This document shows, one piece after another, positions 24,264 through 24,529 of a stretch of 64,000 nucleotides of DNA. Each line of letters starts with the position of its first letter. Position 1 is the first letter of the stretch. The stretch spans positions 124,001 through 188,000 of the forward strand of contig CAIQIA010000026.1 of the NCBI GenBank assembly GCA_903871775.1, written 5' to 3'. Source of the DNA: an uncultured cyanobacterium. Lineage in GTDB: Bacteria; Cyanobacteriota; Cyanobacteriia; PCC-6307; Cyanobiaceae. A program made the position numbers and the translations under genes. The notes under the pieces were generated by a model. The model worked only from the letters and a program-made list of their open reading frames with translations. It did not search any database and was not told the origin of the DNA.

Positions 24264-24529
24264 TCACGAGCCTATTCCCAAGGGCGAGAGAGAAGACTGG
24301 AAGATCTCCCACTCGGCACGGTTGTAATCGACAGAGACCGCAAACATGGCATCACCGAATACCTTTTTGGACAGCGGGTCGGCGGCGAACGCCTCCATGA
24401 CCTCAGGTCGGGCTGGGGGTGGAGGCGTCGACAACGTGGGGAACATCAGGATCGGGGCCTTTCTTGATCCCTTCCAAACCGGCCGGCAACACGACACTCG
24501 ACGGGGCCACCCGCCGACGGTGGTGAGGG
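24264..24529 (-). pseudogene. Frameshifted C-terminal remnant of a glutamine-synthetase-family (GlnT-like) gene
   Basis: Two adjoining reading frames give one recognisable protein end. The upstream frame reads VLPAGLEGIKKGPDPD and runs to a stop near 24406. The other frame then continues as VMEAFAADPLSKKVFG and NRAEWEIFQSSLSP, ending at 24264. Together they match the last helices of GlnT/GS proteins (AAGLDGIKxGLDPGEP and EALxADPxLxxxFG, then KRAEWExF). The whole N-terminal catalytic part is missing and the junction is frameshifted. It sits exactly between hypB and the binding-protein gene, so an intact ligase probably once belonged to this operon. Confidence 0.75.

Follow-up and report, generated by a model that had tools for sequence, protein, structure and literature searches.

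We identify the interval at 24248-24533, on the minus strand, as almost certainly a pseudogene of a glutamine synthetase (GS)-superfamily, GmaS-like ligase gene, lying between hypB and the importer of a cyanobacterial guanidine operon within the 64,000-nucleotide stretch analyzed here (the window). Taken alone, the pseudogene is ordinary gene decay. It points to a conserved, guanidine-linked clade of GmaS-like ligases that is absent from those passages of the cyanobacterial guanidine literature available to us, and it is this clade, rather than the pseudogene, that deserves follow-up and can be assayed directly.

The ligase remnant and its operon

The window holds a guanidine hydrolase operon, with a Guanidine-I riboswitch, a GdmH-like ureohydrolase, HypA and HypB, and an ABC importer (Table 1); a urease is found in the genome. 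The extended cluster beyond the Rieske gene also includes a MetX-like hydrolase. In all relatives, marine Synechococcus included, where the TIM-barrel gene turned up close to the operon, it keeps its opposite orientation. The desaturase-family protein shows weak similarity to GntB, the arginine hydroxylase of the guanitoxin pathway (53 bits, cut-off 380), and is a candidate for hydroxylating a guanidino compound. The called frame of the binding protein (23206-24312, 368 aa) runs too far, into the remnant, and its start is likely the ATG at 24222.

Table 1. Features of the guanidine operon and blocks of the ligase remnant (window positions; codons refer to the intact same-genus gene, locus L038).
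Feature	Position	Strand	Basis or correspondence
Guanidine-I riboswitch, operon head	26846..26977	-	Rfam RF00442, 75.8 bits
Ureohydrolase-family protein, GdmH (guanidine hydrolase)-like	25625..26938	-	
HypA-like nickel chaperone	25243..25710	-	PF01155
HypB-like nickel GTPase	24530..25237	-	TIGR00073
Pseudogene, GmaS/GlnT-type ligase	24248..24533	-	alignment to intact L038:1903-3234
Remnant: ancestral start ATG-ACC-CTC (MTL)	24525..24533	-	codons 1-3; overlaps hypB stop as ATGA, same in L038
Remnant block, frame 1: PSAGGPVECR	24491..24520	-	codons 325-334 (9/10 identical)
Remnant block, frame 2: ...VVLPAGLEGIKKGPDPDVPHVVDAST...	24409..24501	-	codons 346-376 (17/31)
Remnant block, frame 0: EVMEAFAADPLSKKVFGDAMFAVSVDYNRAEWEIF	24300..24404	-	codons 393-427 (23/35)
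Remnant block, frame 1: PWE*ARDLNVF*	24248..24283	-	last codons and stop; internal TAG 24272-24274
ABC importer substrate-binding protein (SsuA/NMT1 family)	23206..24222	-	start read from sequence
ABC importer permease	22434..23219	-	PF00528
ABC importer ATPase	21653..22423	-	
Rieske oxygenase (GbcA-like)	20643..21656	-	
TIM-barrel (AP_endonuc_2-like) gene, beside Rieske gene	19255-20676	+	
Fatty-acid-desaturase-family protein	18579-19592	-	
Intact second ligase, GmaS type (GlnT/GmaS-like), far end of extended cluster	16243..17505	-	

Aligned with the intact gene of a same-genus relative, the remnant retains 286 bp of about 1332 bp, with about 1.05 kb (79%) missing, and is spread over three reading frames with one internal stop. 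We identify it as a pseudogene from this broken frame and from the extent of the deletion, both judged against the intact orthologue that occupies this locus in the relative. The first two blocks overlap at their ends, where the boundary is not resolvable, and the last 11 codons of the ancestral gene are kept down to the ancestral stop at 24248. An earlier note, made from the sequence, had recognized GlnT-like C-terminal peptides in two frames, and both are present on the minus strand (GLEGIKKGPDPD at 24409-24501 and VMEAFAADPLSKKVFG...RAEWEIF at 24300-24404). Its extent of 24264-24529 falls inside the true span but is too short, and its two-frame description missed the third-frame PSAGGPVECR, the hypB-overlapping start, and the C-terminus with its premature TAG. 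The placement between hypB and the importer was correct. So was the statement that the catalytic part is gone, since nearly all catalytic residues fall in the missing 79%: the GmaS equivalents of Lys30', Glu122, Glu124, Tyr147, Asp177, Glu179, Glu186, His235, Arg288, Trp300, and Arg312 are lost.

Similarity to GS C-termini, as previously claimed, is far above chance. At the DNA level the remnant matches the same-genus relative with E = 4e-20, and a search of the whole genome with the intact protein of that relative returned the two blocks recognized in the earlier note (E = 1.8e-9 and 1.3e-3) and no further copy of the mid-operon ligase gene.

The intact enzyme and its proposed role

Operons of relatives were gathered by a HypB search, which recovered the same operon in many picocyanobacteria. 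In the same genus (L038; also L005/L035), an intact 443-codon gene lies in a 1268-bp hypB-importer interval, beginning at an ATGA overlap with the stop of a hypB that is 88% identical to that of the window. The full gene is present in 52 of 83 non-redundant loci, absent from 28, and partial in three, one of which (L042) is merely cut by a contig end; with L042 left out, the proportion is 52/82, and under less strict deduplication it is 49/96 intervals. The majority of freshwater/euryhaline picocyanobacterial relatives thus carry a ligase gene at this site, and in two other, distant cyanobacterial families (L118, L119) its place in this operon is between hypA and hypB. This comparison of the hypB-importer interval, which the earlier note had called for, bears out its view that an ancestor possessed an intact amide ligase here. 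Among the gathered loci, L111 has a HypB seemingly fused to the permease around 8535-8549 with the binding protein missing, reflecting a deletion or misassembly. Two records titled Bifidobacterium breve and Acidiferrobacteraceae (L067, L107) contain cyanobacterial guanidine operons and are likely mislabelled or contaminated bins.

The closest solved structures to the intact same-genus protein are the glutamate-methylamine ligase 9qur (E 2e-112) and RhGmaS 7cql (E 8e-96), and the protein matches TIGR03105 over its whole length with 565.7 bits, above the cut-off of 469.6. GmaS and GS are told apart by Asp50', at the ammonium site, and by the Glu-flap Glu, as described with the RhGmaS structure (PMC7948447). 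We read these columns in 54 orthologue rows in Rhodovulum numbering; the row L002 was set aside because it is another GS-like protein, encoded in the genome that carries the window. In 54/54 rows Thr stands at the Asp50' position and Trp at that of the Glu-flap Glu, and catalytic Asp177, Glu186, and Arg312 are conserved in all. On its residues, the intact orthologue is therefore no true glutamine synthetase (GSI) by the published criteria. In the methylamine pocket, Gln175 is Ser and Asn188 is Asp in 54/54 rows, with Tyr147, Glu179, and Lys30' kept. Given these two altered pocket residues, we regard the orthologue as a GmaS relative and do not file it as a methylamine ligase. The mid-operon ligases form an uncharacterized clade, invariantly altered in the amine pocket and tied to guanidinase operons; a literature search found no biochemical report on it.

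Among 292 cyanobacterial genomes drawn evenly, GdmH (one orthologue) occurs in 44 and a strong ligase orthologue (E <= 1e-110) in three, all of which possess GdmH with the ligase within about 2 kb. A Guanidine-I riboswitch heads each of the six relative operons scanned. With phylogeny taken into account, coupling of the ligase to the Rieske gene does not reach significance (39 with both, 12 with neither, 6 and 2 discordant), and its coupling to the desaturase gene is not significant. Published descriptions of the cyanobacterial operon name hypA, hypB, and the importer, and for picocyanobacteria they add a Rieske protein; the available portions of these papers contain no mention of a GS-like ligase (PMC8390497, PMC10119275).

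We propose, with somewhat better than even confidence, that the ancestral enzyme acted by glutamylating an amine or guanidino compound. With ATP and glutamate as co-substrates, the intact enzyme would gamma-glutamylate an organic amine or a guanidino compound, either imported with guanidine or generated beside it, and this step would precede oxygenase steps, for example by the Rieske protein, in analogy to the aniline, naphthylamine, and methylamine pathways. We prefer a glutamylating role to ammonia trapping because the orthologues lack Asp50' and match GmaS-type ligases; of the two roles first suggested for this gene, to 'glutamylate the substrate' fits the sequence better and to 'trap ammonia' is less likely. 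A true glutamine synthetase, re-assimilating ammonia from guanidinase and urease, is an unlikely identity for the intact ancestor. The GS superfamily fold, the TIGR03105 title ('type III glutamate--ammonia ligase'), the ammonia released by the operon, and the urease in the genome would all suit such an enzyme, but the invariant replacement of both diagnostic residues and a GlnA equivalog score of 329 bits, below the cut-off of 429, argue against it.

Within the preferred glutamylating role, a more specific version is doubtful: that the mid-operon ligase is a new enzyme type, repeatedly lost in the family, that gamma-glutamylates guanidine or a substituted guanidine. Speculatively, Asp188, as an extra pocket carboxylate, together with Ser175 could open room for a guanidinium group and would be compatible with a guanidinium-like substrate. 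Such a ligase, if real, would constitute a third route of guanidino-compound handling; our literature search found no paper on gamma-glutamylguanidine. The separate idea that the ligase is supplied with methylamine by guanidinase acting on methylguanidine is weakened by a published assay, in which guanidinase had no activity on methylguanidine (PMC11410670).

Decay of the ligase and the second GmaS-like gene

Divergence between the remnant and its same-genus orthologue is 0.18 at codon positions 1 and 2 and 0.45 at position 3, a ratio of 0.40 compared with a median of 0.28 for intact copies at the same codons (Fisher p 0.1-0.2, not significant). Such weakly relaxed codon-position divergence points to recent decay, unproven by rates alone; taken with the intact same-genus gene, it suggests that the ligase was lost recently in the window genome. 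Presence and absence, counted by parsimony on a GdmH+HypB tree, require at least 10 state changes when all 82 loci are counted and at least 8 when only the 65 freshwater-type loci are, gain and loss being indistinguishable on this tree. A second broken allele occurs in a different Cyanobium lineage (L084 8702-9550, = L124, L014), where about 180 codons have been deleted in frame from the interior of the gene, removing most catalytic residues and leaving an open 281-aa frame. Two different broken alleles mean that losses do occur, and absence or decay of the mid-operon ligase recurs in the family. This natural series (intact, in-frame deleted, fragmented, and gone) could show the value of the ligase step to cells.

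In the window genome, the ligase was destroyed by a large deletion of about 0.96 kb, by two small ones, by frameshifts, and by a nonsense mutation, which left hypB and the importer intact. The cell could drop this step because core guanidine use (import, GdmH, and urease) would need no ligase, and the second GmaS-like gene may partly back up the lost one. The earlier description of the remnant as a 'fossil of a longer pathway' holds for the ligase itself, but the rest of the extended operon is kept, including the intact GmaS-like ligase at 16243-17505.

ORF calling places an 89-aa frame at 24264-24533, in the frame of the block at 24300-24404, and we consider it very improbable that the old start and C-terminus have been joined here into a small functional protein of a new kind. 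The frame does begin at the old start, with translational coupling to hypB, and stays open across codons 393-427, but about half of it (residues about 4-43) lies in frames foreign to the ancestor, and it has no conserved counterpart in relatives, remnants of the window type being confined to a single genome. It has no Pfam or NCBIfam match, being too short and frame-mixed. The remnant comes from a single genome assembly, as would be expected if an intact gene had been misassembled or misread, but the loss of about 1.05 kb together with several shifts and a stop between clean flanking genes, and the independent broken allele in L084, make such an error highly unlikely.

The second ligase type retains all GmaS pocket residues in 7/7 rows and groups with RhGmaS in a clade separate from the mid-operon ligase, and both ligases are intact together in two loci (L120, L129); its own clade and this coexistence identify it as a separate enzyme. 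This intact paralogue belongs to the same cluster and lies 7 kb from the remnant. That the remnant is a translocated or duplicated fragment of it, rather than an orthologue destroyed in place, is rejected as extremely improbable by the tree, by the coexistence, and by the junction, since the start that overlaps hypB and the ancestral stop of the mid-operon gene are both preserved.

Together with the desaturase-family and MetX-like genes, the second ligase forms a movable block, found at the operon end in L057, L062, L099, L120, and L129 and inverted upstream in L074. A PF00120 search of the genome that carries the window (G000, C2:170943 and C4:59286; assembly 96% complete) found only this GmaS-like gene, one resembling gamma-glutamylputrescine synthetase, and a 761-aa frame whose length is GSIII-like, with no classical GlnA among the hits.

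Comparison with known systems

The orthologues share with GmaS (RhGmaS, 7cql series; 9qur) their whole-length similarity, the lack of Asp50', and the residues Asp177, Glu186, Arg312, Tyr147, Lys30', and Trp300. They differ at three positions within the amine pocket or adjacent to it, with Thr48, Ser175, and Asp188 for Ala, Gln, and Asn (54/54), and in lying in guanidinase operons, with the window copy a pseudogene.

Glutamylation followed by oxidation has precedents in the gamma-glutamylanilide and NpaA1 pathways, where GS-like ligases act with Rieske oxygenases (PMC11335346). As with the gamma-glutamylanilide synthase AtdA1/TdnQ and with NpaA1, a GS-like ligase and a Rieske oxygenase occur here in one catabolic cluster. 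Those enzymes act on aromatic amines, whereas the present ligase falls on the GmaS branch, not the AtdA1 branch; no GAT-like partner was found for it in the searches made.

Guanidine-riboswitch operons of Vreelandella encode a methylguanidine-demethylating dioxygenase and a lyase (PMC12508155), a precedent for the dealkylation of substituted guanidines by guanidine-operon enzymes. That system differs in using a 2-oxoglutarate dioxygenase with a lyase and the guanidine carboxylase pathway, and no ligase was found in the text of that report. With Synechocystis sll1077-sll1082 and the marine picocyanobacterial eCAG with its Rieske gene, as far as the accessible parts of those reports describe them, the window operon shares the riboswitch, GdmH, hypA, hypB, and the ABC importer, and the Rieske gene lies downstream likewise in picocyanobacteria (PMC8390497, PMC10119275). 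To the operons so described, the freshwater/euryhaline relatives add a ligase between hypB and the importer, and it is this gene that is broken in the window.
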